Part shown: positions 8,487-50,890 of the stretch, piece by piece
Numbering within the stretch: position 1 is the stretch's first letter
Layout: the number at the start of each line of letters is the position of its first letter
Origin: Seison nebaliae
Lineage: Eukaryota > Rotifera > Pararotatoria > Seisonacea > Seisonidae
DNA length: 56,532 nt
Direction: 5' to 3'
NCBI GenBank assembly: GCA_023231475.1
Contig: JALJEE010001598.1
Span: forward strand, 1 to 56,532
Notes under the pieces: generated by a model
What the model was told of the DNA's origin: nothing
What the model saw: the letters and a program-made list of their open reading frames with translations, nothing else
Databases searched by the model: none
Translations under genes and position numbers: made by a program

Positions 8487-8493
8487 CGTCTAA

Positions 8494-12420: not shown

Positions 12421-14197
12421 ATGAAGTTGGCTTTCCAGCCAGCCACCTTCTTCTTCTTCTTCCTTCTGTCCATCGCATTAGTCGGAAGTTTCTTTTCATT
12501 CTCCTTCTTCAACTTCATTCTCCTTAGCAGGTGAGCCAAAATGTCCACGATGCAAAACGATGAGATGTCCATTGGGACAAATTGTCGATCCCGAAACTCA
12601 TTGCAAGTTATGTAGATGTCGCGAGACACTCGATTCGCCTTGTCAAGTTAAAACTATTCAAGTCAACTCTTTCTTCACTAAACTCAACTAGACGATAAGT
12701 TGTAAAGTGGATGAAACTTGTGTGGCAACAGACAACGGTTTACCCAAATGTCTACCAAGTTCCCAATTCGATTTTTTTTTTCAATTTCATTTAAATTTTT
12801 AAAAAAGAAATGGTGGAATTAGATAAATATTGTCCGGTTGCATTCAATTGCCCATCTTCACCATGTTCAACACATTCGCAATGTCAAGATAAATCTTCCC
12901 AATTATTATGTTGTCAAACAAAATGCGGATCTCAAGTTTTCCTCTCAAATTTCTCATCATAAATTCTTCATACTTCTTCTAAAGTGTGTCAAATCTTGCA
13001 ATAAAATGTTTTCATGTAATTTAGAATGTCCCGATGGACTGAAGGAGGACAAATATGGTTGTTCGATTTGTGAGTGTTACCAACCATGTACAAATTTCCA
13101 TTGTCGACGACAATACGAGTTTGAAATTTTTCTTTCTTCAAACAATTCTCTCCTTCTATAGATGTATTGAGATGAATACTCCACGATATTTATCAGATCG
13201 TTGGCTATTCTTCGATTCACCAATAACGGCCAATGTCGGACGTTATAGTATACCGAAGAAAATACCAATTTGTCGTAAAAGTTTCCTCAAATTTACTCAT
13301 TTGACAATTTAAAAATTTGTTCAGTTATCCGAAGTGGTTCCTGTCCGTTGAATGATGTGCCTTTATTGAAATCGTGTGCAAATACGAAATCATGCGAAGG
13401 GGACGGTGAATGCAATATTGGAGAGAAATGTTGCAAACATGAACGCTGTAGGAAAATATGTCGACGTTAGAAAAATTTCTAGTTTTTTTTTAATTTCGAT
13501 TTTTTTCCAGAACAATGTCCTTATTTGAACAATTGTTCATTGAAATGTAAATTCGGTCTGGAAATCCTGGCGAATGCGTGTATGACATGCAAATGTCATG
13601 ATCCTTGTGAAAAATCAAAATGTCCTCCCGGAAAAAAATGTCGTCCATTCACCAAAGATCGAGTTCAATGTGTCGATGGTTCTTCTTTCATAATCTCACA
13701 AATCATTTCCTCCGTTTTTTAAGAGAATAAATATGGACTGTGTCCTTCTAAAGGCAAAGTATCAATCAATATAACTGAAACGACATGCAATGTTGATGCT
13801 GATTGTAAGTGGACACATAAATGTTGTAAAAATTATGTGAATGGGAAGATCTGTGCAAGTTCTCCTTCAACTACTACCTAAAAAGGAATTAATTATTTTC
13901 CATTTCCTGTTCTTTCCAGTTCCTTGTGAGAAGACTAAATGCACCAATAATTGTTTCATGGGAAGTTATAAAGATGACGAATATGGATGTCCCACCTGCA
14001 AATGTAAATATGACGAATTGAAACAAGATAATATTATGCGATATTGTCCAGTTAGGAAATTGAATTGCTTCTAAATTTTTTTCAAAAATTGTTCTTAATT
14101 TTTTTTTTTATTTTAGATCGTCTGTCCAGCTAATATGAAATGTAGATGGAATGTACGATATAATATCCATCATCCAATGTGTGTGCCCATCACCTAA
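12421..14197 (+). CDS. secreted antistasin/WAP multidomain protein
   Basis: Eleven exons give 428 aa: 12421-12487, 12531-12646, 12692-12758, 12808-12935, 12985-13118, 13162-13280, 13325-13465, 13511-13678, 13724-13858, 13920-14050 and 14117-14197. The summed length is an exact multiple of three. Exon 1 is a signal peptide with a Phe-run core. Antistasin-type modules lie in exons 2, 5, 8 and 10 (for example CPDGLKEDKYGCSICEC and YGCPTCKC). Whey-acidic-protein modules lie between them: exons 4 and 7 have eight cysteines including the CC pair, and exon 9 has six. Both families are usually extracellular serine-protease inhibitors, so a secreted inhibitor is inferred. Every intron is 43-66 nt and begins GTT. 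Confidence 0.8.
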
Positions 14198-14345
14198 CAG
14201 AATTATCTAAATTTTATACAAACATTTTTATTAACTAATCTCATAAGTCAAAAGTATTTTATTTTTAATTTATTACAACGTTGAACCTAGATCATTTATT
14301 TTTTACCTTTTTTCGAAATTAACAATAAATATTTATCACCCAATC

Positions 14346-15759
14346 TCAATTAAGATCGTCTTTCATCTCATGTAAATATTGTTCAGTTCGTTTCATATTT
14401 TCAGCTAGTGACCGATGCATTTTGGAATTGCCTCGCAACTTTCCTCCGTAACTGTCTCGATAATCATTCGCTAATATCTGTTTTTTCGGTCTCAATTTAT
14501 TCTTATCCAAATCATTCAACACATCGACATTAATGAGATTCTTTGGCATATTCCCATCGATTGTATATCTCGGTCCTTTCTTCTTCTCCTTCTTCTGAGC
14601 GAGTTCGGGAAGACGAATATCGGAATTTGTAGAACGTCTCCTCGCTGCAGTTCGAATATTCCTTTCTTTCATTCTAATACGTTTCGATACAATTTTATTC
14701 TTAGCTCGACAATATCGATAGATGATGAGTGGGGAAATGATTGCCATTAATAACAATTGAATGATTGCTGTGACGGTTAACATGGCGATGCTCCAATTAC
14801 GATCACGTAGAAAAGTTGGTTGGAGAAAAATACTGTCGACATATTTGACGACAATTGGAACTAATTTTTCCTTAAAAGATCCATCGATAAATGAACTCAC
14901 TTTACCAAATTGAATATTTCGAATACCGCGCAAAATGGCCGCTAAATGATGAGAATGAAAGTGAAATAATTAAATATTAATTAATTAAAATAATTATTAA
15001 TTAAAAATATTATTAAACGATGACATGTTGGACAACGTAAATTGCCCAATTTTATGGGAGTAGTTAAATTACAATGGGAAGTTCCTTCACAAATTTGAGC
15101 TATTTAAATTTAAAACAGTATTTAAAATATTAATTATTAATTAATTAAAACCGTTAGTTAAATAATAATTATGAACAGTTACAAATAAAGTGTCTTGTCT
15201 TACACGACATTGAAGAAATGAATTTGATTGTAGATTAGCTCGATAAACTATGAGTGGACATGAAGCACGATCACATTTTTGAGAATCGAGAATATAATTA
15301 TGATCTGTGTCTTTTATCGTTTTCTTCAATTCATTCCTTCGATGTCGAAAAGTGAGAAATTTGGTGAATTCGACACGCTCCACTATCTGACTACTATGTC
15401 CTTGAATGACGATCCATTCAATGGAAGTTCTCCTCGTCACATCAGTCAAACGGAAACCACAATGTAATTTAACATAATTCTTATCATAAACAATCAGATT
15501 GTCACCTGACCTCAAAAAAATTTTAATTGAACAATGATTCATGATGATTGATAAAATGGAAACGATTCGAATATGTAAAAGGACCGAAATGTTTCGGATC
15601 GGTTATTTCTAATTTGAACGCACAATTCTGATCACTCGATAATGCCGTTTCAGGAATATGATTATTGAATGTCTTCAAAAGACAATTCATCGTCTTATCA
15701 CATCCTCCACCACCCAATAGTGTAAGAATAAAAAACAAATTTAATTTATAACAATTCAT
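14346..15759 (-). CDS. putative single-pass membrane protein, unknown family
   Basis: Four exons on the minus strand. Exon 1 starts at 15759 with a signal peptide (MNCYKLNLFFILTLLGGGGC). Exon 2 begins after an AG at about 15505 and encodes a Cys/Trp region (VKLHCGFRL, SIEWIVIQG, FLQCRV) that could be an Ig-like fold. A short exon at about 15103-15030 encodes ICEGTSHCNLTTPI and NLRCPTCH. The last exon (14940-14346) has a transmembrane segment (AMLTVTAIIQLLLMAIISPL) and a basic cytoplasmic tail of about 120 aa. All three introns start GTT. The ATG lies only about 41 nt after the UCHL5 stop on the same strand. The CEGTSHC stretch hints at a SUEL-type lectin fold, but I cannot assign a family. 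Confidence 0.6.
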
Positions 15760-15800
15760 GGCAAATTTTTTCATTTGCCCCTTTATCTTTTTTGTAACAA

Positions 15801-16778
15801 TTAAAATTTTTGCGCTGACAAAAGTTTGGCACGACGATTTCGAATCTCTTTCGCTTTCCCTAATCTCTCCTTCAAAATTCCACATTTCGCCATCCAATTT
15901 ATTAAGACGACTACCGTCGGCACATAATTGTGACATCGTCGAATATTATCTTGATCTCGACGATTCTTTTTCTCCTCTTCTTGTTGGAGAGCGAATTGTA
16001 ATTTCATCATTTCTTCGTCAGCCTCTTCTGTCGTCTCTTGAGCTAATTCTCCCACTCGTTCCACAATTTCAAGAGCAGTCGAATATTTCAAATACATCAA
16101 ATTGAAACGAATTTCACTTCCATAACTCTGATACATGTCCATTCGTTTGGAGATGATTCCACTCGCAGATGTCAACCAGTTGTCACCGGAATAAGTTCCA
16201 TGATCGATCGGATGAGATCTCGTTCCGTCCAATTCAATAATGTGCTTCTCAAAAGGAATATAAGCGACAAAATGGAAAACATCTTCTTTTTTCCCTGTCA
16301 ATCCTTTCACCGGTTGTGATAATTGATGAATTCTTGCATATTTATTATGGACGAGACGAATATGATCCGAATTTGTGAGAGCTTCACCTTTCATTCGAGA
16401 AGAGAATTCGCCCGTAAATTCCTTAAATTCCGTCAACGTTTTCCCTATTTCGATTTTGTCGTCTCGAATATTCAAAAGAATACTCAAAATGGCTTGTGTA
16501 GCACAAGCATTTTGGATGACTTGTTCAGCGAAGAATAACTTCTCTAAAAGCTCACCATCTTTCAGGTATTTCCCACCAGTCATCGGTTGGCCACCTTTGT
16601 CCTTCTGGAGATTGGACCACTTAAATAAGAAAATTAATCCGTAAGATGATTTTATCGAATTTAACGTCGCCTCATCCATCGAATATAATTCATCCACCTC
16701 CAATTTATTACAACCCAATTCCCCAATGAGATGTGTAAATAATCCCGGGTCCGACTCTATCAAACACCATTCCTCCAT
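15801..16778 (-). CDS. UCHL5: UCHL5/UCH37, proteasome-associated deubiquitinase
   Basis: 325 aa, intronless; human UCHL5 has 329 aa. It is a cysteine protease of the UCH (C12) family that trims ubiquitin chains at the 19S proteasome, and in mammals also works with INO80. The catalytic residues are visible: Gln86 (FFAEQ), Cys92 (QNACATQAIL), His169 (DVFHFVAY) and Asp184 (IELDGT). The C-terminal ULD tail follows a coiled segment and contains DNIRRCHNYVPTVV, matching the human RRKHNYLPF block that binds RPN13. All key residues are present, so it is likely active. The stop is very close to the start of the next gene on the same strand. Confidence 0.95.
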   Translation of the reverse strand: MEEWCLIESDPGLFTHLIGELGCNKLEVDELYSMDEATLNSIKSSYGLIFLFKWSNLQKDKGGQPMTGGKYLKDGELLEKLFFAEQVIQNACATQAILSILLNIRDDKIEIGKTLTEFKEFTGEFSSRMKGEALTNSDHIRLVHNKYARIHQLSQPVKGLTGKKEDVFHFVAYIPFEKHIIELDGTRSHPIDHGTYSGDNWLTSASGIISKRMDMYQSYGSEIRFNLMYLKYSTALEIVERVGELAQETTEEADEEMMKLQFALQQEEEKKNRRDQDNIRRCHNYVPTVVVLINWMAKCGILKERLGKAKEIRNRRAKLLSAQKF

Positions 16779-17462
16779 GAATCTTTTTAGTTAGAAGAAA
16801 TACAGTCAATCAAATTTTTACAAACGCATCCACTAAATAAACTTTTCAAAAAGCTTACTCTTCATCTACATTCCAACTATCATTATCTTCTTTAATAAGG
16901 TAAAAAATTCAAATTATAAAAAATTTCATTTTTCATCTCCTACATTTCATAACTACACAAAATATAACCCTTATTTCAATATTTTTAATTTCTCTTCCGA
17001 TTCTATAATATATTCTTCTATTTACATATAAATTTTCACGGAGTTAATCAATTGAAATTATTCAAGAAATTATACAAAATTTGTTTTTTACGTTAACTTC
17101 AAAATTATAAGAAAATTACTATTGGCGTAAGAAAACTATTATTGTGTAAGAAATGTTTCATTAAACATTGCTGTTAAATTAATTAATTAAACTAACCCTA
17201 AAATTGACAGAGGGGAATGTTTTCAGATTGAAATTTTTGGAGAAGAAACTATAAAATTAATAAATGATAAGTATAAATGATAAGAGTATAAATTGAAAAG
17301 AAAGATAACAGATTTCAAAATAATTTTCTTATTTAAATTAAATGAAATAAATAAAAAATATTAAATGGAAATATTATACTGTTCTCCATTCAATCGTTGG
17401 CCATTACATGAAAATCAAATAGAAGAGAAATATCAAAGTTCATTCTTTTCCAATTAAATGTG
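16779..17462. other. intergenic between divergent UCHL5 and VPS39
   Basis: About 680 bases of AT-rich sequence between two divergent genes. A 30-codon open frame from an ATG at about 17365 on the + strand ends before the VPS39 start and could be an upstream ORF. No other feature seen. Confidence 0.45.
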
Positions 17463-20400
17463 ATGGAGGATTACGAATTGTTTGAACGAGGTCATCATAA
17501 CCTCTTGTTCGAATCGACAAATTATTCGATCGATTCTTTCGCTTATTTCCGTTAGATTTTCATGTGGAATATTTTCATGATTCTCTTCGATATTTCTAGG
17601 AAATAAATTATATTTCGCTTGTCAGAACGATGTGATCAATTACAAATTAGAAGGTGAAATTAAAAATCTGTTGAAATTCATTAATTGATGTAAAATTGAA
17701 AATTGCAGAAGGAAAAATTGAGATGATGAATCGATATCAAAATGTTCTGAAGAAGAAAGTGACACAAATGATGATCGCTGAGGAATTGGCACAAATTCTC
17801 GTGGTGACGAATGGTTGAGAATTTGATTCTTTTTTTTTTAAATTTAATTTTAATATTTCAGATTATTTATTGACATGTCACACATTCTCCAATTTCACTC
17901 AATCACCAATCACCGTCATAAAAGATGTGAAATTTATCGATCTTGATGTTATTTCTATTTAATCATTTCTAATTATTAATTCTAATTAGACTGATGATAA
18001 TCGAAATACTTATCTGTTAATCGCGAATAAAAGAAATTATAGTATTCAATTATTCAAATGGACGGGACAAGATTTCTTCCAACAAACAGTTAAATTCTTT
18101 AATAATTTAAATTAAATAATTAACGCTTAATTTAATAATCATTAATTGAAGGCTCTTTCGTTACCGGGAGCGATAAAATCGGCAAAATTATGTGGGAAGA
18201 GTGTCTATGTTTATGTTGATCGTGAAGGATATTATCAGATCGATATTCAAAGTGGAGCAGCACAACAATTATATGGAAGTAATGGAAATGTTCCACCCAT
18301 TATCGAGACAATCAAATTACAAAATACTGAACGTGATCGATCAATGAGATTATGCATTCTCCAACTATCCAAAGATTCCGTCACCACCAAATCCAAAGAG
18401 AGTTCCAGTGTTGGATTGATATTCGACGAGAATAAAACTTTGTTGACCGACATCGATAATCAAATGACGTGGTCGCAAAATCCGACGAAATTGATATTTC
18501 TCCATCCATTCGTCATCGGTTTTCTCATCGTTTCTTTTTCATTTAAATTCATTTTTTGTTTTCAGGAATTAGTCGTGAGAAAGTACAAATTAAACGATTA
18601 TATGGATTGTTGAAAATGTTGGATAAATTCGAGTATGGTCAATTGGATGTGAAACATATTCAAAATGTCGATGTTTATGCTTTTGTTCGGAGATCCAAAT
18701 CGGAAATGAAACAATTAATTCCCATCAAACATGTGACTGTGGATGAGATGTTGGTGAATTCTCTTTTTTCTTGTATTGGAAATTTTTATTTTTTAATTTA
18801 ATATTTTTTTCAATATTTTTTTCATTTTTAATCAATAGAAATCAATCGATATTCGTCGCTGGTGATCATCGAATGATTAGTATTCAGAAGAAGACGTCAC
18901 ATCAAATTCAACAATATCTCAAATCGAAACGGGAATATGAAACATTGAGAGAATTAATCGAAGAAGATTTACATATTGACGAATTGGAAAAAAAAGATCA
19001 TTTTTTCACTCTCAATAATTTGACTGCGAATTCTCATTTCGGCAACGGGAATTATGGTGCAGCATTCCGTTTATTCAAAGAAGTTCGAACTGATCCAACA
19101 CATATCCTTCATCTCCGTCCTGAATTGTTACCGTCCTCGATAAAAATGGAAAATGAGATATTGGAACATTTATCGATTATGGTCATCGAATCGATTCGAG
19201 ACGATAATCGTCGGAATGATGAACGAATGATTAAACGAATTCAAAACGACGAAACTTTAGAAGAAATGACGAATTTTTTGAAATTTCATCGATCGGAATT
19301 ATTGAAAAAAATGGAAACGATTCAAAACGATTTCGATCCAGAATTCAATCCATTATTGAAGGAACAGAAACCAGTCGATTCGGCTCGTATTTGTCTCATT
19401 CTTATCGATACGGCAATGATGAAAATTTTCATAGGAACAAAAGAATTTGGGAAATTTATTGATCATCCGAAAAATTCCGTTCCGATAAATGAAGTTGAAA
19501 TGGTGATCGGTTTCCAAGAGAATGAATGGGAGGAAATGGATTGGAAGAATTTAGCGAGTTTTTATTTCAATAAAAAATCATATGGGAAATGTTTCGATTT
19601 ATTAAGAAAGAGATTGAAGACGAATGTGAATGAAACGATTTTGGAATATTTGTCAAGAATTGATGATAAACATATCGATATTCTATTCGAACAATCTATT
19701 CAATTAATTAGGAGAAATAATAATATAATTTATGATTTATTTCCGTTGAATTCACCAAAATGTTTAGCAGCAATTCATACGGAAGAAATCATCAAATTCA
19801 TTGAACGAACGATACCCAACGAATTAAGAGATTATCTTCTCCATCTCAAAGAGAATTGGAAAGAATTGTCAATGGAAAATTGTCGATTAATAAACGGAAA
19901 ATTAATTTTGACTTTATTCGGAATTCTTTTAGAATTTATTCAAATGAAAAATGTGAGTTTATCAGAGAAACAAGTTAATAATTATACCAATCAATTAATG
20001 ACAATTATTACGAATGATGACGAGGAATATGATGGAAAGGAAATCATTCATCAATTAAATGTTCATCCAATCACGTCAGTTATGACGAAAATCGATATTT
20101 CACCATCAATTATTACCACATGTCATTATCTGATTTTGGTGAAAGTTCACGTTTATGGACAATTACATCTACATAATGACTCGTTGGATTTACTCATCAC
20201 GCAATTGAATGACGAGAATGCACTACACGAATATCTCGATCGACATTGTCATTCATCCACCATCGAAAATGTTTCCTTCAATTTTCCTGTTCCTCTAACG
20301 AAATTTCCAGTTAACAATGGCGTTGGTGAAGTGTTTGTTGAAGGAGAAGAAAGAAGAAATGTTAGTGAAAGTTCTTGATAATAGAATGATTTATTGGATG

Positions 20401-20847
20401 GATAAATCGATGGACAATTGTCAGGAGAAGATCGGGAAAATTAAAGAAATTCTCAATCTCATCAAAAAATCCCAATTGAATGTTTCGTTGAGAAAAACGA
20501 AAAATTTCATCATCTCTTCTCTAGGTCTTATCGAGAAGAATTTAAAAGAACTTTATTTGCAGAAAACTTTATTACAAACACAACAATTATCTGTTAGAGA
20601 TTTTTTTCATTTGTTTTTTAAATTTTTGTATTGGAAAAGTTGGAAGAGAAAAGAATCGCAGCTGAAAGTGAAGTTTTCATTCTACGAGAAAATACGACAT
20701 GCGCTATTTGCATGAGAAGAATACGTATTAATGAATGGTTAATTTTCTTCATTTATTCTCCATAATTTCATTAAAACATTTAGTGCATTCATCAAATATC
20801 GAAATAAGAATTCGGTTGTTCATTTTGGTTGTCATAAAGAGAATTAA
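17463..20847 (+). CDS. VPS39: VPS39/Vam6, HOPS tethering complex subunit
   Basis: Eleven exons give 808 aa: 17463-17550, 17600-17653, 17709-17813, 17862-17947, 17990-18088, 18152-18518, 18566-18749, 18839-20270, 20311-20592, 20640-20737 and 20784-20847. All exon phases agree. VPS39 is the HOPS subunit that links late endosomes and lysosomes through Rab7. The N-terminal exons encode a citron-homology/beta-propeller region; SIFVAGDHRMISI and QIQQYLKSKREYE match its end. The large exon carries the clathrin-repeat block with FKEVRTDPTHILHLRPELLP, diagnostic for VPS39. The C-terminus has a zinc-binding motif (TTCAICMRRIRINEC, then SAFIKYRN-type and VVHFGCHKE). The start is chosen at 17463 because MEDYELFERG resembles the family N-terminus. 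TGFBRAP1 is the nearest alternative but fits less well. Confidence 0.88.
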
Positions 20848-23428: not shown

Positions 23429-25045
23429 TCATCTAGTCTTAGTGAGTGAGGAACATCCCAAAAAACTGTTAGCTTGAGTACTCTGTAATTCCAATGCATT
23501 TAATTGGGAGTCGATCGAGAACACTGGTCCATCCAACCACAATAAATCGAACCCTCCAATTTTCGTTTCTTTTCCATTTAATCTAAATTTGTATTTGGAG
23601 AACTATATAGAAAAGGAAGAAAATAAATTTAACTTTCCTTCCATATCAACCACATCGAATACATCCGACAATAAACGATATTTCAACTCGTAATCTTCCT
23701 GATTACTATGAACTAATGATGGAGATGCATTCACTTCCACTAACCATCTGATTTAACCGGAAATTTTGAAAATTTCTAATTTCGAAATTAAATAAAAGTT
23801 CTAACGCTTTTAAATCATCACCTAATAAGATATCATAACCATACAATTCGAAACAATGTTTATCATTGATGATATTCTTTTGAACTGATTTCAATGATGT
23901 GATAATCACATTATCGATTTCTTCCATTAATTTATTGATTCGATCTCTCCCATGAATTGCAGTCAAAAAAATTCTCAGTCGTTTCAATGACCATTTACAT
24001 CCTTTCTCAGCGTCATAATCTGGTGCAGTCTTCTGCACAGCAACATTTGTTAAATGAACATCTAAAAATGAATTTCATGAAACTGAAAATTTGAAAATTC
24101 CAACAAGTATCAGCAATCGATTCCATCGTATATCTCGTATTTGAAAATCGAGCGAAACCTTCTCGATATAACCAAATTTTTAATGGAATATACTAAAAAA
24201 GAATATAATTCACATTTATTTAAAACAACCAACACTTGTTACCACAACATAAATTCTTAAGTCAAATTTCCGTCCGCCAATAAGAAACGGTTTATCGATA
24301 TATTTTTGTACAACATAATCTTTCGGAATTTCCGCTTCTCGTTGTTGTCTTTCGAATTGACTAATATATTCATCACGTCGCCACTCACAAATATCTTTCA
24401 ATTCACGAAATAGAAAAATTCCTTTTCCTTGACTCTTCGCCACCGGTTTCATTATCCATACCGTCTCCGGACATTTTTTATATTCCTCAACGAACATATG
24501 ATATTCCGACTATTCTCAATCCAACAAACATTATTAGTTTTCGTTCACTTTCAATAGTTCAACTAACAGGCAATTCATAAGTTGTCGGATAGAAATCACA
24601 TCTGGAATTAGTTTCCTTATCGAATTTTCAATAACAAGTTTAGAAATTAACTGAGCGGTGTCGGGACTTCCTAATTTTTCTAGCTGTCGTCTATGACGCT
24701 TCAAATTTTTTACCATCAGATTCTTCCTGGTCAATTCGTAATGATTACGAAAATGATTAATTTTAGCACATTCATCAGTAATTCCTTGATCGAAACATTC
24801 TTTCATTATAGTTGTATCTGCCCAAAATATATCCCAAGGCTCGTCACTAAACAACGAACAGCTTTCAATTATTTCCAAATAATCAAATCATCAAACTTTG
24901 CTACTTCTACCCAACCACGGCTGGCCATAACAACATTGACAGTTGGTTGAAACGAACATCTGAAACGAATTGGTCTATCACTAATTCCTGGACGATTCTT
25001 ACCAACTGATGTCTTCACCGGTGCAACTGATTTATATCCCGACAT
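23429..25045 (-). CDS. TTLL9: TTLL9, tubulin tyrosine ligase-like polyglutamylase
   Basis: Eight exons give 421 aa (human 439): 25045-24897, 24846-24652, 24601-24568, 24509-24234, 24192-24105, 24061-23806, 23747-23634 and 23582-23429. The summed length is an exact multiple of three. TTLL9 adds glutamate side chains to tubulin in cilia and flagella. Diagnostic blocks are [37 protein letters not shown] (ATP binding), [38 protein letters not shown] and [11 protein letters not shown]. It matches TTLL9 more closely than TTLL1 at [10 protein letters not shown] and in the C-terminal [12 protein letters not shown]. All seven introns (41-58 nt) begin GTT. The start is the Met of MSGYKSV; an in-frame Met lies 15 codons upstream. 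Confidence 0.93.
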
Positions 25046-25938: not shown

Positions 25939-26715
25939 TTACTCTTTATTCTCGCCACCTGCTGCTGGTGCCACGTCGCCACCTCCAGCTGTATCTTCTT
26001 TGTCTTCATTTTCGAGATCGCTCGTCCACAACGTCAGATTATCACGCAACAATTGCATGATTAATGTAGAATCATTATAGTTATTACAATTGATCTTATC
26101 CAAATCAGCCATGGCCTCATCGAAAGCCGTTTTTGCCATATGACACGCACGATCAGGTAGATTCAAAATTTCGTAATAGAATACGGAGAAATTGAGGGCA
26201 AGACCGAGACGAATAGGATGTGTTGATTCCAGTCCTTCCTTAGCGAGAACCATCGCTTCATCATAGGCAGTCTGGGCATTCTTGACTACTTTCTCTCGGA
26301 AATCACCAGTAGCAATTTCAGCGAGATATCGATAGTAATCACCTTTCATTTTGAGGAAGAAGACTTTCGACTCACATTTGGACGCACTAGTTATCAAATA
26401 CTTCTCGAGGAGTTGAATGACTTCTTCACAGATCTCTTGGAGTTCCTTCGCCACTTGTTCTCGATAGTCTTTGATCATTTTTATTTTACTTTCATTCGAA
26501 TCGACCTTCTGCTCAATACCGGTAATAACTCGCCATGATGATCGTCTCTCGCCAATAACGTTCTTGTAGGCGACGCTGAGGAGATTGCGGTCTTCGTTGG
26601 ACAATTCACCACCGATCTCGGTCACCTCTTTCATGGCCTTCGCCATGTCGTGGTATCGTTCGGCTTGTTCGGCTAATTTCGCCTTTTGTATAAGTGCATC
26701 ACGTTCCTTAGTCAT
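25939..26715 (-). CDS. 14-3-3zeta: 14-3-3 protein, zeta-type
   Basis: 258 aa, intronless coding region. 14-3-3 proteins are dimeric cytosolic adaptors that bind phosphoserine/phosphothreonine motifs. The diagnostic signatures are present: [59 protein letters not shown] and [18 protein letters not shown]. The N-terminal [18 protein letters not shown] dimer helices fit the zeta group better than epsilon. The Ala/Gly/Glu-rich tail after residue 235 is slightly longer than usual. The start is the Met directly after a T-run (CATTGTTTTTTTT in the plus sense). An intron could exist in the 5' UTR. Confidence 0.97.
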
Positions 26716-34698: not shown

Positions 34699-37600
34699 TC
34701 AAATATCGATGACGGCGCTATGATATTTATTACCGGTTGATCCTTTCAAAAACTGTTTTATTCCACTTGCTTTCCCGAAAATTAATTTCGTTGCAGGATT
34801 CTCACTCGATAATTTTACGCACGAGGTCGTTGAGGTTTCATTGAGTGGAGTATCGAGACTTTCAATTTTCGCATTTTCAATAATTTCCATTTTTTTCTCT
34901 GAAACGATTATGAAATTACCATGAATGAAATAATGAATAACGATCAGGAATACTTGGACGACGAGATCGTTGTTTATTATCGATTGCAGTATTGGAAATC
35001 GATTCCATCACTTTAGAAGAGAATGATTGTTTGTTTTGTAAACGTTTCTGCCACAATTCCCGGAATTCATGGTCGGAGAATTCAGCGGCATCAGATACCA
35101 CTTCAAGTGTTATACGTTCTTCTTCAAGTGTTTTCGATGTGAGAAATTTTGAGATCATTGTTCGTACGAGAGCACATGGAATTAATTCAGATTCACGTAA
35201 CTCATATTGGCGATCTAACGAACAGGTTAATACAGGTTAAATTTTTAAATATTCTTAAATAACTTAAAAGTTTCAACTCGTCGATTTCTTTCTTATAAAC
35301 ATTTACGGATGATAAATCGGAAGATATTTCCAACCATTTTTTTTCCGATTCCTCTTTTTGTCTCTACAATTTCATTATTCTTCTTCAATTCCCAAATCAT
35401 ACCAACTTTTAATTCATTAATTTCCATTCTTTTATTTTCGATTGTCTTATTCAATTCTCGTTCCACATAAATCTTCCTATCCAAATTTTCATTCAACACA
35501 GCACTCTTACCTAAACAGAATCGATAAAGAAATTTATGAGGATAAATTCCAACCGGATAATATACGAATCGTTTCTTCAAGTTCATTGATGCGATTCTCA
35601 TTCTCATTCATCAATTTATTCCAACGTTCCTTTTCTACTTTGTCATGTATTTTCTTCTTTTCCGCCAAATGCAAAATTGCTGTACTTCGTTCTTCTTTCA
35701 TTAACGCTTCTTTCCTATCATAAAATTTAATTTTTATTAATTTTTTAAAGTATCAAAACTTTATCTCATCCATTCGTTGTTTGAGACTAACAAGTTCTAT
35801 CTCGTAATTTTGACATCTTTTTCGTAACTCATCCTCTCGTTCCGCCTGTTTCAAACCAGTTATATCAAGTTCTGATTCTTTCTCTATCAAATGTTGTTTC
35901 AATCGTTCGAATCGATCTTTCCATTGATCTCTTTCATTTTCTGTTGATTGTAATACTAATAATTTATTGTTAATAATTATACATTTCATTTCATTCCATA
36001 AAGAAATTCAAACATTTTTCTATTTTATTAATTTCTTTCTGTTTCCTCGAAATTTCTTCTTGATCAATCTCAAATATGTTCAAATTAGGAAAATTTAGTT
36101 TTCCACAAAAAATACTAACAAATTCATTATTCAAAAAGTTTTCTAATTCCGGTTCCAATTTACTTAAACGGTTCGAATAGTTCTTTATTTCTTTTTCAAT
36201 CTCTTCATGTTGTGTCATCAAATCTAAATTGAGTTCTGGAATCAAAAACATTCAAATATTTTAAGAGCGATCATTGAAATGGAAACTTCTTTCATCTTCG
36301 TAATTTTGGGATAACTCGAAACATTTCTCCTTACGACTAATGAGTTGTTGAAGATATTTTTCTTTTTCGTCAACTGCGATTTGAATTTCTTCTCCTCTTA
36401 TTTCTAATTGAGTATTCAACTCATCAATTTTGTTCTTCATTTTATGAATCTCATTAAATTTCTCCGATAAAATTTCTCCATTTTTTTCTTAAAAAAAACA
36501 TACATTCATTTAATTGAAATATTTTTAGAAACAAACCAATTTTTTCCAATAATTGCTTATTCCTCGATTGTTCATTTACAATTATTTCCTTATATCTCGC
36601 CTCTTCTTTCGTCAATCTTTCATCGACGTCTTCCACCAATTTTTTGAATTCTCCAACTTTCATCTCTAATGATTGATTCTCGTTTCTAATTCTTTCATTT
36701 TCCTGTTCTTGCGATTCATTCTGTTCAGTTAAATTTGCATTCGTTTTCAATAACTGCTCAATTTTTTCATTCATTTCATTTAACGTTTCTATCGTTTTCT
36801 CTTGAACTTCTTCAATTTTATTTTTTTTTTCTAAAAGTTTCGATTCGTAACATTTCTTCATTTCTTCCTTCTCATGAGATATCTTCTCCAGTTCGAATTG
36901 AATTTTTTCAATATTCTGATGGAACTCGTCGTCAGATCTTCGAGAATCAGTTGCAGATAAATTTTTTATTTCATCCAATTCCGACGAAATTTCGATGTTT
37001 TCTATTTTCATTTTTTCCATTTCAGAATGCAATTCAGATTTCTCTTTTTTAACTTCCTCTAAACTCCCAAGCATCTCAATATTCTCCGTTTCCATTTTTT
37101 TTAAATTGGATACAATTTCACATTTTTCATTCCTCACAAATTCCAATTCTGTTAACATTTCCGATTTTTCTTTCTCCATCTTTTCTAAGTGGGAAGAAAT
37201 TTCACAATTCTCCATATTAAATTCTTCGATCTTAGTTGAAAATTCTGAATTTTCTTTCTTCAAATTTTCCAATTCTATTGAAATTTCAGATTTCTCCATT
37301 TTGAACTTATTTAATTCCCGTTTGCAATTATCTTCTTCCGTTGTGTATTGGTCGAGAAGATTTTTCAATTTGTCATTATCATCGTCCAATTCAGTAATAC
37401 GTTCTTGTTGAGCTTGAACGTCGCTAGTTAATGATTCACAGGTATCGATGAGGATCAGTTTCTCCTTCTCAAATTCTTCTTCGATTTGAACTTGTTGAAT
37501 TTGATATTTATCTTCCAACACGATTCTATTTAATTCCATTTCCTTTAATTTTTCATTAAATTTATTTTCATTTTCCAATAATTCATCTTTCAACAATTTA

Positions 37601-38916
37601 TTCTGATTCGATGTCTCAGTCTCTTCCGCATTTACATTTGACGATTCTTTTAGATGTTTTATTCGATTTTCTAATACTTGAATTTTCTCTTGATGGAATT
37701 GAGAACTGCTCATCAAATTTTCGGAAAGACCTTCATTCTTTTCTAATAATTTCACGTATTTTTCTCGTTCATTTGCCAATGAATCGTTTAGGGACTTATT
37801 CTCTTTATCGAAATGTTCCATACGATTCTTATCTGAAATAGGAAATTTATTATATCGATTAAAACTGAAGGAAAAATTTACATTTGTTATCTAATTCTTC
37901 GTATTGTTCGGTAAGATGCAAATGTTGTGTGGTCAATTTCTCGATAATATGGTTCAAATCGTCTTTTAACTTCTGTTGCTTTTCCATCAATTCATCGTTC
38001 GATCTATTAGAAACGATCAAAATTAATTTTTCGATTTTCCCGACAAGATTTTAAGAGAACTTGAGAGATTCGTTTAATTTGTTTTGTAGATTTTCATTTT
38101 CAATCTTAATGGAGTCGGAATGTTTAATTGATGACAATAAACTTTCATTTTCCTCTTTCAATTCATAAATTTCTGCATTTAATTCATTATCTGTCCGTTC
38201 AACTTCTTCTTTCTTTTTCAACAGTTGTTGTAATCGGAAAATTTCCTCGTTTAATACATCAACTACTTTCGAATTAGATTCATTCAAATCTAAAGTAGTG
38301 TTAGAAGATGTGGGTGAATTATCGACCGAATCAATTCGTCTCCTTTAAAACATGAATAAAATTTCTTTAAAATAGAATGAAAGAACTTTAATTTTTTATT
38401 GAGTTCGAGTAACATCGTTATTCTTTTCTCTCTAGTTCCCATCTTTTTTTTCAAGTCTCTAATTTCAGTGTGGTTCTTCAACAATTCTTCGTCATTTTCA
38501 CTGGTTTGTTGAAGCAAATGTTTCCGAAGTCTTTCAATCTCACTTCCCATCTTCTCAATCTGTTCCTCCTTCTCATAATAATTATGTGATAATGTATTCT
38601 GTTTCTAAATGAATTTTTCATGATAATAATTTGTTCAAAACGAAAACTCTAAACTTCTTTATTTAAATTCGCGATTTCTTCATTTGCCAATCGCAATTTT
38701 TCTTTCAATTCATCGACCTTCAATCAAATTCAAACGAAATATTACTTTAATAATTTTCTAACTTCGATAGTATCAGCATCATCATCCTCATCTGTTGATG
38801 TGAGAAGAAATTAAATTAAAAAAAATTTGTCTCAACTGAAAAGAAAAACCTTTCAATGAGTCGAGAACACGATCGGACATTTGTTTAAGGGAACCGGGTA
38901 TAAAATTTGTAAACAT
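34699..38916 (-). CDS. long coiled-coil golgin, GMAP-210/TRIP11-like
   Basis: About 15 exons; the start is the Met at 38916 (MFTNFIPGSLKQMSDR) and the last exon ends at 34699. I place introns at 38849-38792, 38762-38718, 38654-38599, 38386-38343 and ten more downstream. Almost all of the roughly 1100 residues are heptad-rich coiled coil (Leu/Glu/Lys/Asn). Near the C-terminus the coil ends and a compact block follows: IPCALVRTMISKFLTSKTLE and then VVSDAAEFSDHEFREL. This has the pattern of the GRAB/GRIP Arf-binding domain of GMAP-210-type golgins. The short N-terminal segment could be an amphipathic membrane sensor. Assignment to golgins rests on this end; a generic coiled-coil protein is the alternative. 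Twelve of the fourteen introns begin GTT. Confidence 0.65.
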
Positions 38917-42269: not shown

Positions 42270-42619
42270 GACGCCGTTGGAAAGATTGTAAAATTCTCTT
42301 CAAGATGACCTATAACTTTGAGACATAGAAGTGCAAAATATGTCTTTTCTTGAAGATATGTCTTGTCTATGAAATATGATTTCGAATTTCCATTAAAAAA
42401 AACAGTCTAAAACTGCAACCCGTTGGCCAGAAAGACGATTTCGTTATTTTTTCGTAATCTTTCAAGTTCGTCGCGATGATGATGCTGCTGTTTTCATTGT
42501 TAAGGATTGTACCGTCATTTATCGTCAGCGTCATTCAAGACACCGTTGGAAAGATTGTTAAATTCTCTTCAAGATGACCTATAACTTTAAGACATAGAAG
42601 TGCAAAATATGTCTTTTCT
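42270..42619. repeat. 81-base direct repeat, two copies 269 bases apart
   Basis: 42270-42350 and 42539-42619 are nearly identical (GACGCCGTTGGAAAGATTGT and following, ending TATGTCTTTTCT), with only a few substitutions. Sequence between them is unrelated. The copies could be ends of a larger element or a local duplication. Confidence 0.8.
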
Positions 42620-42810
42620 GCATGAAAATAAAAAATGTATCTAATTTAATTTTTTCCAATTTTTAAATTTATTTTTTAAAATTGGTTATGAATGATGTCA
42701 ATCCAAGAGTTATCTGCATCCCATGCGTCAGAACTAGTAATGAACGAATCTATTAATCAATTATCTGCCGTTTTTCATCTTTCATCATCTATTCTCTGTA
42801 TTGTTTGAAA

Positions 42811-42966
42811 TTGGGGAAAAAAATCACACGTCAACTTACTTAACTACGTCAACAAGGACAAATAGGAATTATCAAATACCTATATATATGAATACGAATA
42901 TGATAATTCCTATTTGTCCTTGTTCAAAAAATAAAAAGTAAGTTGACGTGTGATTTTTTTCCCCAA
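42811..42966. mobile_element. foldback (MITE-like) element
   Basis: Terminal inverted repeats of 29 bases (42811-42839 and 42938-42966; beginning TTGGGGAAAAAAATCACACG) are perfect. An inner pair (42851-42874 with 42901-42924; core CAAGGACAAATAGGAATTAT) is also perfect. Each side has a short unpaired spacer of 11-13 bases, and the loop is 26 bases. Such perfect arms suggest recent insertion. No open frame inside. Confidence 0.8.
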
Positions 42967-45900
42967 TTTTCAAACTTAACGGATTTACTTAATTTTAATT
43001 TTTTTTTAATGACCACAATAATTAAAAAAGGGGGACGAACTGTCCAAATCCTTACCATGAGGGTGAAAAATCAACCAAATTGGTTTAAAATCCAGAAAAT
43101 TTCACTAAAAACTGTGAAACATGGTGACTAAATCACCAAAATCATATAAAATGGGTGACAAAATGACCATTTTCAAGGTGGCGAAATTACCGATTGCCAA
43201 TAAAAATATTATTGGTGACGAAATCAGATAGATTCCTCCCAAAAGGTCGTCTAGCCAATGATTAGTAACCATCTAGCAAATGTTGGTTTTCGTTATAGTG
43301 TAGGGCCTATACCTAATGTTATTTTCCCACGGAAATGTTCAGTGAATCGTTATAAATTATTCCATTTTTTAGAGAATGAATTATAAATTGCTATAAATGA
43401 AGTGTTAAAAATCAAGAATAGATTGATGAAGAACTGCAACTAAAATGATTTAATTCTTAAGATGTTTTGGGAATTAAATATGGAACTCTAAACATTTTTT
43501 TATTAAGAAAGTAAAATAACTTTTTATTCAATTATGAAATGATCAAGAATTTAAATAACATGCAATTATAAATGAATCTGATTAATTTGTATTATTTCTT
43601 CTCTCAATTTCCTTATCTGTCTGACGAGAGTGTTCTGAGAGTATGGAAGAAGTGAAATCGCTTAAACATTAATGAAGAGGAATATAGAAGTATGAATAAC
43701 GAACTTTCGTTTAACGATAACGAAAAGGAATCGTCACGAATGGAAATAATTGGATAAAAGTTGAAATGGAACACTTTCTTTCGACATATTGTAAATTGTG
43801 ATTCTCTCGTGTCACCTAATTCCATTAGGGAAGAAAAGTATCGAAAGCAAACTCTCTGATTTAATTTTACTGTTTTCGTCGTCAATAATCGATGGGAACT
43901 TCTCTTTTTTGATACGATGAAGCAGAAGAAACAGCACTTGTTGAAGATTTCAATCGAGACATCGAATCGAGATTTGGTTGAACAAAATTCTTTCCTTCTT
44001 CAGATATGTAAGAGAATTTTTGTTGAGGAGGAAGGAACAATTAATTGAGTTCGAATCATAGTATTATCATTTAGTGTTGAATTAGGACCAAGTAGAATTG
44101 GGATGAATAATAATAAGAAATATCTCTCATAATAGATAGCATATGATCGACAATCATAGAATCGGATAAAAGATGAAGTGTTTCTTTTTCATTATATATT
44201 CATTAATCTCTCAAGTAGTTGAATGATTCGACCTTTTTCTCCTGTTTCGTTTGATGCATCCTTTCTTTCAATAAGTTTCATTTCATCAATCGTATGGAAA
44301 AAGCAAATAGAAAAAAATCAAATGATCATAATTCTATTAAGATGATGGGGAATGGGAGTTAGCATTTGAAAGAAAATCGATCATTCAAATATTATTATGG
44401 TGATCTTAAATCTATTATCATCACCATCGTCACCGTCGTCTCATATATTATTCATCGACAAACCAATGGGATAATCTTCTACAGTGACTTGCCAAAAACT
44501 ATGTGAATGGAATGTTATTATTCCTTTTCGCCTGCAATTTCTTCTCTATCGATATGGTGGATTCTAATCGATTTATTATCATATTTTTTCCAGTTATCCT
44601 TATGATAAAGAAGACGAAGAAGAAGAAGAGGAGGAAAGTAGAATATGAATTAATTGTGATGATTCTTCTTCTTTTCTTCTCCTCAAATATTTTCCATTTT
44701 TCATATAATTCTTAAAACCACAAAACGAAAAAAAGAACTAAATTAACAGAATTTCACTCCCCCATTGTATTGGGTGGTCGTCGGGGAACGGTATTCTAAT
44801 CAATTTGAGATAATTCGTTAAAATAGAAAAATAATCTTGTTCCTATCGAATTCTTCTCCTTATCCCACTATTCTTATCCTAACTATTCTCTCGAACTCAA
44901 TTCAATCTCTATCATCCTCATCATCATGGTTCGCGAGGATAAAAGTTGTTATTTATGTTACATTGTTTCGATTGATCCTCGAAACGATTGTTTAGATTCA
45001 TAATAATTTCTTATTTCGGAATCTTTAATCAGGTTATTTGCTAGGAGATTTCAATCTTCACTCTATCCACTTAATCTCTCCACGAGAAGTTTCTCTTCAC
45101 ATTTGTTATTGTGGACATGTCGATTGTTTTACTATACTAACTTCGTTCCATGATTTCCACTGCTTTAAACTTTTCCCCTAACTTCTACCAATTTTTAACT
45201 GGCAGAAGAACTGTAGATTCTCCACGTTTATTTTCGTGGATATTGACTTTCTGTAAATTTTTGGAAACTCTCTAGAAAACACTCAAGTTTAAACGACATT
45301 CGCCCATATATAATATCGGAGAATAATAAGTATAAGTAATGAGTTGATATCAAGAAATTGTTGTCGTGTTGATGGAAGTGTATTATGTGCTCAATTAATC
45401 ATAAAGAAAACGGAGAATTGTATTGTCAAAAAATAATCATTTCCAATGTATCAATCAGAGAAATGATTCGATTAATATCAAATAGCAGATAATATTTATA
45501 GGATTGTTCTCGGGAAGATGATGTCGACGAGAGATTCTTCTCGTCGTCAATACACATGTCGATTAAGTGTTAATCAGTCATAAATGGTCTCATCGTCTTT
45601 GTGAATGGGAGATGGTTTCTTCGTCTTTGCATTCACTTGATGATTAAATGAAGATGAGAGTTGGTGAAAATAATCCTTTAAATAATCATTTATTTCATGT
45701 AATTTGTAAATGAATTAATATGAATAAATTGAAAATGATCAAGATGAGTCATCACTTATTATTATGTTAATTGAAGAAGAAATCGAAGTGTATTTTCAAG
45801 TAGATATCGATTTAAAGAATAAAATTAAGAATGCTAAGTATCGTCATCTTCTTCACTTCCATTCCTCCTCATTCCTTCCTAGTTCTGTCATTTAATTACA

Positions 45901-46666
45901 TTTACATCCATTCCACTTTTCGCCTTCCAGACAACAAATTCTTCAAATGATTAAAAACATCTTCATGCTCTTACGGAGAATTGTTGGGGAGAATTTCTCG
46001 GAGAATGGAGAAGTTTCTATCTATCCATCTCATTCGTGATTTCCTTTTTCACTCAATCCATTACTGTCCACCAATCCACATCAAATTATTTTGATGTTCT
46101 TCTCCGTCTCGTCCTCCTCCTCTCCCTCCAAATCAATTAACGAATTCTCAGAACTTTTTCTAATTAGTTTTCACCTTTTTCCTCTCATTTTTCTTATATT
46201 TACATCCATCGTCACATCGTCGATAATAAATTTCATTTTAATTAGAAAAATCGACCGACGAACATCTTCTTTTTTTATTTCGATCAAATTAGTTTTCTGT
46301 TTTCTTTCCATTCATTCCCTTCTCCTTTCGTTGACACGGACCTCAACTATTAGATTTCAAGCACTATTTACTTCCAAAGAGGCCAATCAAATAAAAGAAA
46401 CAGCCGTCAATTTTTCCTTTATAATTCTCGTGCGATAATCCTGTCGGTCGTATGAAATTACTTCTTCTGTAACATTCAATATCCGTCATGTTCAGCTGAT
46501 GTCAAATACTGATTTCATTCAATACTGTTTCTGACAATTCTTCTTACAATCTCTTATCATTAATTTCATTTCCCGCTGTTTACCATTCTTCCATTTCTTT
46601 CCAGATTCTTCTGCTATTTAATTTCTTGGAAGAAAGATTAAAAGAGAGCAGATATTCTCACATAGA

Positions 46667-48764
46667 ATGAATTCAATGATCCTCAACAGCACACCAATGT
46701 TCAATTCATCGATCGAAGAAAATGTGGCTACATCAAACCGAAGTTCTGACGACAGTTCACCATCATCCTCATTCAGTACGAATGTTTCCTCAGCCGATTC
46801 CAACAATCTGATGAAAGTTGATGGAAATAATGGAGAAAAGATGGACATGTCAGAAACGTTGATGAAATTAGCGTTCCATTATATGCAGAATGTCAAGAAA
46901 ACTTGCGATTCAAAAGAAGATCAAAATTTCATCAATAATAAACCGGATAACTTAATTAGATTTGATTGTGGCAAACGTAAAATGCCATCAATCGATCAAC
47001 ACATGATCGGAATGAAATATGAGAAAATCAGTCAGAACGACATTGAGTATAAACGAGAGACAGATATCGGTGGATTGGCGGTGAATGTCGATTGTGTTTT
47101 TCTTCCTTCCGACGAAATCGTTCAACAGAAACAGCAAATTGTCGAATTATCAAGGAAAACAGGAAGTTTCATTTTCTTCATTTCATTACTTGACAATTTT
47201 CCCATTTTTAGATTTAATCTGTTTAGTTTGTGGAGATATTTCCAGTGGAAAACATTACGGCGTTTTAGCTTGTAACGGTTGTAGTGGATTCTTTAAGAGA
47301 AGTGTCCGTCGTAGATTAACTTATCGGTTAATTGATTCAACTTCTTTCCTTACCTTCTAATTGTTATAGATGTCAAGCGAATAATGGTGAATGTTTGGTG
47401 GATAAGGCACATCGGAATCAATGTCAAGCATGTCGTCTAAAGAAATGTATCCAGATGGGAATGAATAAAGAAGGTTCATCATCGTATTTTTAATATAATT
47501 GAAATTCTGAGTTTAGCCGTACAGAACGAACGGCAACCAAGAACCACAACAATTACCGGTTCGAACGGTTTATCTGCTTATCAGAAAGGATCATATTACA
47601 TGAAAGCGAAAGGAAAAATTGATCATTATATTGGCGATCAACAAAACATGATAGATACAAGTTCCATTAAAAATCTTTTTTCATTAAATAATTAAACATA
47701 GATCAAGATTCGTCGTTAGAAAAGATTCAAATGAATTATCGAATGTTAAACGTGTTGAATAATATCTCTGAAGGAAGATCTGCTGAAAAAGTAGTCGGGA
47801 AACAAATAGCAAGTGACTTATTGGATCGTCGTTTATGTCTCATCAAATTCGCTAGTCATTTGGGAATATCGAACCAATTTTATCAAATTATCGAGAATCC
47901 ACTAACCAGTTTCCGTTCAATCAAATCATGGGCAATGAATGTTCCCGAATTCCAATCGTTAAATACCGACAAACAAGTTTCTTATCATTTTCATGAAGTT
48001 TATTATCATTCTTTTTCTTCTTTAATTTTGAAAGAATGAATTACTAAAACAATCATGGTTAAGTATTGTCTTTATCGATATATTAACAGAGAATAAATCG
48101 AGTAATACCAACACCGTTAATGTTAATAACAATGGAACTCGACATAGTGTTGAACGATTAATCATGCCATCTGAAGACAATAGTGAAGAGAAATTTCTTT
48201 TCAATAATTTGAGCAACACTCAAATTTATAATTGTAAAAAATATTTGTTATTTAAAATAGGTTAACATTTATAAAAACTATTCAAATTCGACAAGAAATT
48301 AACATTTTTGCAAATTTTTTAGATGATATTGAATTATTTGGAATTAATATACCCTCTTCAACTTTACATACTACGATTATCGATGAATTTACAACATCGT
48401 TTCTTTATTATCAGAATAATAAACCGTTTGGAATGGAATCGATTGCTGATATGATGAGGAAAGCCTTTATGATAATGGTAGCACTTGAGAATATTTATCA
48501 AAAAACTTATAATTGGTCTCTCAATGTAATCGATGAATAAACAATAAATTATCTAATTATATTCTCCCATTAAACATTTCATCTCAATTCTATCAATTTT
48601 AGATTCTTATTATTAAATTTATTCGCCATCTACCTTCTTTTCATTTTTTCAGTCTTCAGAAATTTACCACTATGAACAATTTGTTAAGAACATTAATAGA
48701 ATTGTTAGGTAATTACGAAGTGGAAGAATATATTATAAGACAAAATGGAAACATCATGATGTGA
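46667..48764 (+). CDS. NR2E3: nuclear receptor, NR2E3/PNR type (Hr51/fax-1 ortholog)
   Basis: Eight exons, 556 aa: 46667-47165, 47212-47326, 47370-47473, 47517-47660, 47702-47976, 48035-48260, 48323-48525 and 48660-48764. All phases agree. It is a ligand-type transcription factor of nervous-system and photoreceptor development in other animals. The DNA-binding domain is nearly identical to the family: [19 protein letters not shown] (P-box [12 protein letters not shown]), then [20 protein letters not shown] and the A/T box [12 protein letters not shown]. The first 166 residues are a Ser/Asn-rich variable region. The ligand-binding domain starts near [10 protein letters not shown] and retains [12 protein letters not shown] and LLKQSW. 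It is divergent, with an AF-2 end of [20 protein letters not shown] and following residues. Six of seven introns start GTT; the last starts GTAATC. Confidence 0.9.
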
Positions 48765-49175
48765 AATAATAAATAAAATAACATCATCACATTTCAAGTT
48801 TTGATACACTATGTGAAACCCTGAATATTTTTGGTTTAAAAACTTTCGAATACAGTATACGTAATTTTCTTTAGTCAAAAAATATGAAATTAAATTATAT
48901 CAGTGATCAATTGAAGTTTTTTACTTTAAAATTATTTTACCTTATCACCGATTGTCAATAAAAAAATTATGGTTGACTAAGTCACTGACAACCACTTCGT
49001 TATGTATAATTTATTTTGGATTTTATAAGAATAATTAGGAAACTAAGGTAACTTATAATCAGTATAAACCTATAAAAAAGTAACAAGTCTAAAAACGATA
49101 TAATGAACTACAATAAGAAAACTTAAAAAGGAGTAATTTTATTTCAATTTTTCATGGGATTATCGTTTAAATTAT
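48765..49175. other. convergent 3' flanks of receptor and monooxygenase genes
   Basis: About 400 bases of AT-rich sequence between the ends of two convergent genes. It contains an AATAAATAAAATAA run just after the receptor stop (48767-48780), a likely polyadenylation region. Confidence 0.5.
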
Positions 49176-50890
49176 TCACAAGAGGAATTCTAAACGTAAA
49201 TGAGCCCGTTTCATTAATTTTAAAACGATTTTGAATCGATTATCTTGCTTCAAGTAATTGTTATAGATTTTTCTACCCTCAGCATTCTGCAATATCATAA
49301 TCAGGTTAATTGTGAATTAATAAAATTAATTAATTAATTATAAACTTTTAGGCAATTATTTGAATTTAAATTCACAAGTGCATTGTAACAACCGAATGAT
49401 ATGGCTGAAGAATCGTAAAGATATTCTTTTTCGCATTTCTCGATAACCTCCTTCGCTATACTCGACATTTGATTGAGGAATTCATTGAAATTACATTTTC
49501 CAGTTACGGGAACTAAAAGAATGAATGTCATTCGAGAATATTTAAAGAAGAACCTCCATATCTGGAGAAAAGACAATTATCTAATTCTTCATATTGAGTA
49601 CATTGGAAGAAACGGTGAATTTTTGGATAATATCCCACAAATGCATAACACATTTCCCCCTGAAATCCCATCAATATTTATGAAATTACAAATTTTAAAA
49701 CATCTGATCCTTCTCCCCAATGGATTGTTCGGTTTCGGTAACGATGGTCCGTAAATGATTCGTAATAGCAAGTAACTTTGATTTCATCTCCACGTTCTAT
49801 TTTAATTGGCTTTTCAAAATTGTGAATTGGAGGATGATGAAAATCATAATTCTGGTCATCGACAACGGTAGAATGGATACTGGTTTTATTATCTATACGA
49901 CGTATCAATTCGACTTTGGCTCGGACTCCTGTTTAGTTACGATTCAGTTTTGGTTATTATCAATTAATTATAAACCTAAATAGTGAGTATGAATATGAAT
50001 TCGATTAAGATAAATATTCGTTTGACTCTCCAGCGCATCATTTACACAGAACGAAGAACAACTACCTTCTACTTTTAAGATTTGTTTACTCTCCGCTGGG
50101 ATGGTAATAGCATCTTGTCCGATTTGTACATTAGCTGCATTAAATCGTCGCAATTTCTTCGTGTAATATACACGCCATCCACTATTATCTAAAGTATATG
50201 AATAATTTGTCGAAAACGAGAGTCGAAGTGAACCATACATATTTTTCAGATGATTTGCATTATTGACATGAAGTTGAATATGAAATGTACGGAAACCGTT
50301 TTCTCCTCCAAGCAGGATTCCTGAATTGTAATGAGGACAAGTCCAAGCTGTCGTACCGTACGACCATTGGGCAGTCCATTCTAAACATTGTGCGCCAGCT
50401 ACCGATGTGAAACAATTCGTCGTAATCTGTTTTTAAATAATTATAAATTGAAGTTTAATTTATTTAACACTGGAAGAAGGAACGCCATTTTCACAACCGA
50501 ATAATATCATATGATGATCAGCTACTCGATTGGATATGAGAGGTTCGAAAGCAACAGCATGATATTCCTCATTCAAATCCAACGGGATCTTTAATGAAAT
50601 TGAACTTTTGTTTTCAAATTTTAATATATTAATTAAACTTCAAATTGTTGACAATAGTAGGTAGTTAATTGGGGAGGTAATGTTGTATTATCCAATCTCA
50701 ATTCGAATGATTGTAGAGGAAGATCATGAAATAAAGCTCTTCGACATTGCGCACCAGGAATGTCGTCGACAATAGCTAAAACAGAAAATACATTTCCCAC
50801 ACACATTAAAAGAAAAATTGTGAAGAGAATACCTAAAAAATTATTCATTCTCTGAAACATTATTCGTTGCAAACAAAGTAAGAAACTCAT
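49176..50890 (-). CDS. copper type II ascorbate-dependent monooxygenase (DBH/MOXD-like, no DOMON)
   Basis: Seven exons from 50890 (or the Met at 50848) to the stop at 49176. A signal peptide (MNNFLGILFTIFLLMCVGNV) leads directly into the catalytic core. All six copper ligands are visible: the HH pair in DHHMILFGC, the third His in FHIQLHVNN, the HTH of IHIHTHYLG, and the Met of GEMCYAFVGYYP. The block SGWRVYYTKKLRRFNAANVQ matches dopamine/tyramine beta-hydroxylase and MOXD1, not peptidylglycine monooxygenase. Those enzymes have an N-terminal DOMON domain, which is absent here. The enzyme hydroxylates a small substrate in secretory vesicles, but the substrate is unknown. All six introns begin GTT. 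The last exon is assigned from reading frame only. Confidence 0.82.

Follow-up and report, generated by a model that had tools for sequence, protein, structure and literature searches.

The window analysed here, a 56,532-nucleotide stretch of the genome of the minute marine seisonid Seison nebaliae (Rotifera, Seisonacea), is contig C293 of the assembly that we searched (36.03 Mb in 846 contigs), and our subject is the 5' splice-site code of its spliced genes. These include TTLL9, an NR2E3-like nuclear receptor gene, a copper monooxygenase-like gene and QNG1, together with VPS39-like, golgin-like coiled-coil and membrane-protein genes (Table 1). In the standard metazoan U2-type donor, CAG/GURAGU is read by a U1 small nuclear RNA (snRNA) with the 5' end AUACUUACCUG. 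An initial annotation of the window had proposed that nearly all introns instead begin with GTT, with T (U in RNA) at position +3 and a weak G at +5, and that this would go together with either an altered U1 bearing A at position 6 or a strong shift to U6/U5 recognition.

Donor sites in the window and beyond

TTLL9 is the best supported of the genes. All seven of the donors assigned to it on the minus strand by the initial annotation were recovered exactly (Table 1). The deposited S. nebaliae protein SNEBB_008234 is identical at 416 of 416 whole codons, the remaining 5 of its 421 residues being codons interrupted by introns. Five homologs from other phyla were also aligned; four reproduce all seven donors, and the fifth reproduces six. 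When any dinucleotide was permitted at both intron ends, four of the seven junctions fell at the same GTT and three were shifted one base on with an equal total score.

Homology-supported donors were collected with our own spliced protein-to-DNA aligner, which treats each GT as an equal donor and each AG as an equal acceptor; GT-AG ends are imposed, so that all 25 of these introns fit GT-AG by requirement. T is found at +3 in 24 of the 25 donors, which come from eight genes (binomial P = 7e-9 against a background of 0.409; 41% of all GTs have T next). In addition to TTLL9, these are tyrosine hydroxylase (GTT at 5/5), G6PD (4/4), DDX39B (3/3), the DNA-binding domain of the NR2E3-like gene (2/2), HSD10 (1/1), the dopamine-beta-hydroxylase-like monooxygenase gene (1/1), and AMT, with one GTT and one GTC. 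This GTC is the sole exception among the 25, with an alignment score of 332 versus 328 for a GTT alternative. In QNG1, for which the initial annotation counted four introns, the comparison covered two alignable segments, and no intron lies inside them.

The 256,530 bases, comprising the window and 20 other regions, were also searched ab initio with a semi-Markov gene finder, which was trained from long open frames and started with featureless GT and AG sites. T was present at +3 in 68% of 112 donors after the first, featureless pass and in 149 of 170 after convergence (36/40 in the window, 113/130 in the other regions). Run on the regions outside the window alone, the gene finder returned GTT at 90% of 124 donors, and the model trained there and applied to the window returned it at 41 of 43. 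Expectation-maximization from a start biased by +2/−2 log units toward GTA/GTG moved within six rounds from 82% A/G (17% T) to 81% T. When nine other dinucleotides served as decoy donors, T at +3 reached frequencies of 0.26–0.63 after three rounds, versus 0.89 for GT in the same round. A purine, the usual base at +3, is found there in 10% of the 170 donors. Besides GT, +3 stands out by a wide margin as the strongest position, with neither G at +5 nor U at +6 enriched. The last three exon bases (−3 to −1) are rich in A, which is the commonest base at −1 (45%), and 109 of the 170 introns are shorter than 70 bases. The homology-based and ab initio donors both bear out the pattern first described in the window, and sequence comparison thus confirms that nearly every S. 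nebaliae intron examined begins with GTT rather than GTA or GTG.

U1 snRNA genes

At least four full-length U1 genes are present in the genome (Infernal, RF00003; 112.9, 112.4, 108.0 and 97.4 bits against a gathering score of 69.5); this number is a lower bound, as the search was made in one pass, only the best candidates were scored, and the assembly is possibly incomplete. Three of the four, L001, L003 and L004 (contigs C208, C647 and C762), have A at position 6 (hereafter A6), as the initial annotation had predicted for a changed U1. L001 and L003 start with AUACUAACCUGG and L004 with AUACUAACUUGG, giving recognition heptamers ACUAACC, ACUAACC and ACUAACU; L004 thus also has U at position 9. 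The fourth gene, L002 (C208; 112.4 bits, full length), starts with AUACUUACCUGG and retains an intact canonical 5' end with U at position 6 (heptamer ACUUACC), a form that had not been anticipated. L002 (C208:6576-6739) and L001 (C208:8280-8439) are convergent and lie about 1.5 kb apart.

The standard register of U1 on the 5' splice site places U1 position 6 opposite +3 and position 9 opposite −1, and A6 therefore pairs Watson-Crick with U at +3. At −1, where A is the most frequent base, U9 of L004 provides its pairing partner. The mean number of Watson-Crick pairs with the donor is 4.61 for A6, 3.79 for canonical U1 and 4.81 for the A6/U9 form. Genes on the contigs that carry A6 U1 genes also have GTT donors: G6PD, DDX39B and HSD10 on C208, tyrosine hydroxylase on C762, and a predicted 10-exon gene on C647 with GTT at 7 of 9 donors.

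The four U1 copies are strongly diverged (mean column identity 76%), and at 15 of 41 predicted pairs at least one of the sequences has two-sided changes that keep the pairing; the copies therefore look maintained and not like pseudogenes. The sequences suggest that A6 predates the duplications that gave rise to the three A6 copies. The Sm site AAUUU is present in all four. The stem-loop 2 (SL2) loop AUUGCAC, the U1A site, is kept in L001, L003 and L004, and L002 has AGAGCAC. The element AATTAAACT lies downstream of all three A6 genes, of the U5 gene L006 and of the U2 gene L027; it is exact after only this one of the three U2 genes, has one change after L028, and was not seen after L029. The corresponding element of L002, AATTCAACT, has one change. 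Judged by loop and downstream element, the A6 genes seem no less functional than the canonical U1. The shared element AATTAAACT may represent the 3' box of snRNA genes in this lineage.

Other components of the splicing machinery

The rest of the machinery looks conventional in its RNAs: U6 has the ACAGAGA box, the U5 loop is GCCUUUUAC, and the U2 branch-site region is GUGUAGUA. Of the two options raised initially, the changed U1 is the one supported, and the shift toward U6/U5 finds no counterpart in the U6 box or the U5 loop. The A-rich exon end fits the U5 loop, so some contribution of U5 is possible. U1C is present and looks well conserved against the human protein. SNRNP27 is present with YMNRKGGFNRPLD, the M of which we take to be Met141, and a METTL16-like protein is present as well (PF05971, with NPPF); loss of METTL16 or SNRNP27 as a cause is accordingly unsupported. 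RF00007 (U12) found no match in the genome, and control genomes were equally silent.

Interpretation of the donor shift

We consider it highly probable that the 5' splice-site code of S. nebaliae has exchanged A/G for U at +3 and that U1 snRNA has changed with it; a joint change of U1 and introns is the best reading of the sequences at hand. The A6 U1s would be expressed and form most of the U1 small nuclear ribonucleoprotein (snRNP), pairing with positions −2 to +3. Such a particle would read A-rich exon ends followed by GUU, with +4 to +6 helping weakly, and U5 would pair with the A-rich exon end under a relaxed recognition by U6. The canonical U1 could be a relic, or could serve the few remaining GTA/GTG introns. 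Most simply, U1 would have been duplicated and one of the copies mutated, and the introns would have drifted to GTT in the presence of both forms.

A variety of observations weigh against this interpretation. Transcription of the A6 U1s is a prediction from gene sequence, and a canonical U1 gene is still present beside them. In a free register the canonical U1 pairs better with 55 of the 170 donors (20 are ties), and mean duplex energies of −2.06 for A6 and −1.64 for canonical U1 amount to a gain of only 0.4 kcal/mol, an effect so small that we rejected these energies as strong support. Twenty-one of the 170 ab initio donors are other than GTT, U rather than A is found at +4 (45%), and G at +5 is at background (18%, versus 17% after any GT), a weakness already remarked on in the initial annotation. 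The gene finder is noisy, in that only two of the four introns it predicted in TTLL9 are among the seven true ones, and a relaxed model did still worse. Once the first pass is over, its calls draw on the motif that it has learned, so that the converged figure is not independent. Its total score was rejected as a criterion for the donor dinucleotide, since the decoys TT (4236) and AA (4221) exceeded GT (4199) in the same round.

U at +3 could instead be favoured at the U6 step and through the pairing of U5 with A-rich exon ends, A6 being a minor or passive follower. In the U6 register, U at +2 pairs with A45, U at +3 forms a wobble with G44, and U at +4 pairs with A43; the frequent U at +4 and the A-rich −3 to −1 positions fit the U6 ACAGA and the U-loop of U5. 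GUU donors are moreover shared with Entamoeba, the introns of which start GUUUGU. U1 snRNA has been reported absent from Entamoeba histolytica (PMC13292270), whereas S. nebaliae has four U1 genes. Against U6/U5 selection, the core U6 contacts at +5 and +6 are not enriched, +3 dominates the donor, and the matching base is common to three diverged U1 paralogs; we regard it as unlikely. There is an even slimmer chance that the A6 U1s are variants of minor or tissue-restricted use, with canonical L002 doing most of the splicing and its weak pairing at +3 aided by U1C and U-rich intron-binding proteins. L002 is complete with its 5' end intact, and the high T content at +8 to +10 (57–62% in 115 short GTT introns) might provide a binding site for TIA1-like factors, but L002 is also the copy that lacks the AUUGCAC loop and has a changed downstream element, A6 accounts for three of the four copies, and U at +3 opposes the canonical U.

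We find it scarcely credible that the pattern is an artefact of AT-rich composition, of a choice of GTT in the initial annotation, or of misplaced junctions. The background frequency of T after GT is substantial and intron starts are T-rich, the junctions of the initial annotation were set by eye, and the gene finder misplaces some; yet neutral and adversely biased starts both converge on GTT, homology finds it at all but one donor, SNEBB_008234 and the TTLL9 homologs of other phyla concur, and the match in U1 is independent of these.

Other features of the window and of the assembly

The positions of the introns and genes are collected in Table 1. The VPS39-like gene has seven introns predicted ab initio versus ten counted in the initial annotation, and a sequence search of the PDB found no relative of it. 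Under other gene-finder settings the golgin-like gene has 10 introns, GTT throughout. In the region at 12.4–14.3 kb annotated initially as antistasin/WAP with 10 introns, the ab initio finder called no gene. SCAI and 14-3-3 are each one open frame, and in a SCAI tree the species lies beside rotifers on a very long branch. Open frames resembling mobile elements were judged by eye.

Table 1. Introns, genes and other open frames of the window. Names marked with (i) are those of the initial annotation.
Feature	Position	Strand	Evidence or remark
TTLL9 intron 1, GTTTGA...TAG	24847..24896	-	spliced alignment, SNEBB_008234 and 5/5 homologs
TTLL9 intron 2, GTTAAT...CAG	24602..24651	-	spliced alignment, SNEBB_008234 and 5/5 homologs
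TTLL9 intron 3, GTTAGT...TAG	24510..24567	-	spliced alignment, SNEBB_008234 and 5/5 homologs
TTLL9 intron 4, GTTGGT...TAG	24193..24233	-	spliced alignment, SNEBB_008234 and 5/5 homologs
TTLL9 intron 5, GTTGGA...TAG	24062..24104	-	spliced alignment, SNEBB_008234 and 5/5 homologs
TTLL9 intron 6, GTTAGA...CAG	23748..23805	-	donor 5/5 homologs; acceptor differs in one
TTLL9 intron 7, GTTAAA...TAG	23583..23633	-	spliced alignment, SNEBB_008234 and 4/5 homologs
NR2E3-like nuclear receptor, 6 predicted introns, all GTT	46667..48540	+	ab initio; DNA-binding domain matched in PDB
NR2E3-like, DNA-binding-domain intron, GTTAAT...TAG	47327..47369	+	alignment to NR2C2 chain 7xv6
NR2E3-like, intron, GTTCAT...TAG	47474..47516	+	spliced alignment to NR2C2 chain 7xv6
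Copper monooxygenase-like gene, intron, GTTCAC...TAG	50189..50233	-	dopamine beta-hydroxylase 4zel, weak homology
VPS39-like gene (i), 7 predicted introns, all GTT	17726..20847	+	ab initio
VPS39-like gene (i), predicted introns	17814-17861, 17948-17989, 18089-18151, 18519-18565, 18750-18838, 20271-20310, 20613-20783	+	
Golgin-like coiled-coil gene (i), 13 predicted introns, 12 GTT and 1 GTAAAT	34699..38916	-	ab initio
Membrane-protein gene (i), 2 predicted introns, both GTT	14346..15690	-	ab initio
SCAI	9088-11322		intronless
14-3-3	25939-26715		intronless
Open frames resembling non-LTR retrotransposon	6720-8489	-	by eye
Open frames like hAT-like/ZBED transposase remnants	4699-6359, 52139-52926		by eye

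The published S. nebaliae genome is described as 43.9 Mb in 3,301 contigs, with 31.9% GC and compact genes (PMC8351084), and the searched assembly therefore differs from it in extent. A back-translated pattern of the published lamin-1a tail has one match in the genome, with the lamin-1b tail at the same locus, at a distance of about 400 bases (tails from PMC10125929). At this locus (L034, about 1100-1530, reverse strand) the lamin C-terminal ends QKLVRSRKLN and VQYSMNCSEE are about 400 bases apart, in agreement with the alternative splicing that has been published for the lamin of this species. The published lamin-2 tail was not found in the searched assembly (two of the three lamin tails are present), nor did mitochondrial COX1 have a match there.

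Comparison with known systems

It has long been asked whether the end of U1 can change in concert with thousands of donors, the difficulty being that a single U1 mutation should hit every intron at once. An animal with two kinds of U1 and GTT introns would be a natural case of splice-code recoding, for which duplication of U1 followed by intron drift is a plausible route. Our literature search, with subscription journals mostly outside its coverage, returned no report of altered U1 letters, of U1 co-evolution or of Seison splice sites; on splicing in Seison it brought up the lamin study alone. We think it reasonably likely that S. nebaliae is the first known eukaryote with a mutated U1 recognition sequence and introns that have co-evolved with it genome-wide, in which two functional classes of U1, A6 and canonical, preserve the intermediate and the U9 paralog has gone one step further, fitting A at −1. 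On seisonid genomes, gene predictors built around canonical donors may fail; 36.5% of metazoan BUSCOs are given as missing in the genome paper (PMC8351084), to which splicing might possibly have contributed.

Published systems offer several comparisons. A study of 5' splice sites in fungi, animals and plants states that earlier work had reached no definitive correlation between donor variation and U1 (PMC10599564). Both of the U1s described from nucleomorphs keep the motif, and in B. natans it is conserved though the introns have no donor motif beyond GU (PMC6461891). Fritillaria borealis is, like S. nebaliae, an animal with a genome-wide splice-site shift, and its introns are non-canonical, but its U1 5' ends are reported as unchanged; U2AF paralogs and N6-methyladenosine (m6A) are proposed to be involved, and an evolving U1 is stated to be the route not taken (PMC13326754), whereas U1 is altered in S. 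nebaliae. The Saccharomycotina share with S. nebaliae a lineage-wide change at one intronic donor position, which is +4 in the yeasts and +3 in Seison; Parker et al. link the A/U switches at +4 to METTL16/SNRNP27K and report ACUUACC as invariant among the U1 candidates, which they found in 227 of the 230 yeast species and in 9 of the 10 outgroups (PMC10581693). The diplonemid S. specki resembles S. nebaliae in having a U1 with a changed 5' end, containing a run of C, beside a canonical one; both of its U1s fit the canonical donor logo comparably, and a matching shift of its introns is not described in the portion cited (PMC12621601). With standard metazoans S. nebaliae shares GT-AG introns, U1, U2, U5 and U6 of normal structure, and U1C, but it differs from them in U at +3, in A6 in three of four U1 genes, and in a G at +5 that is not enriched.

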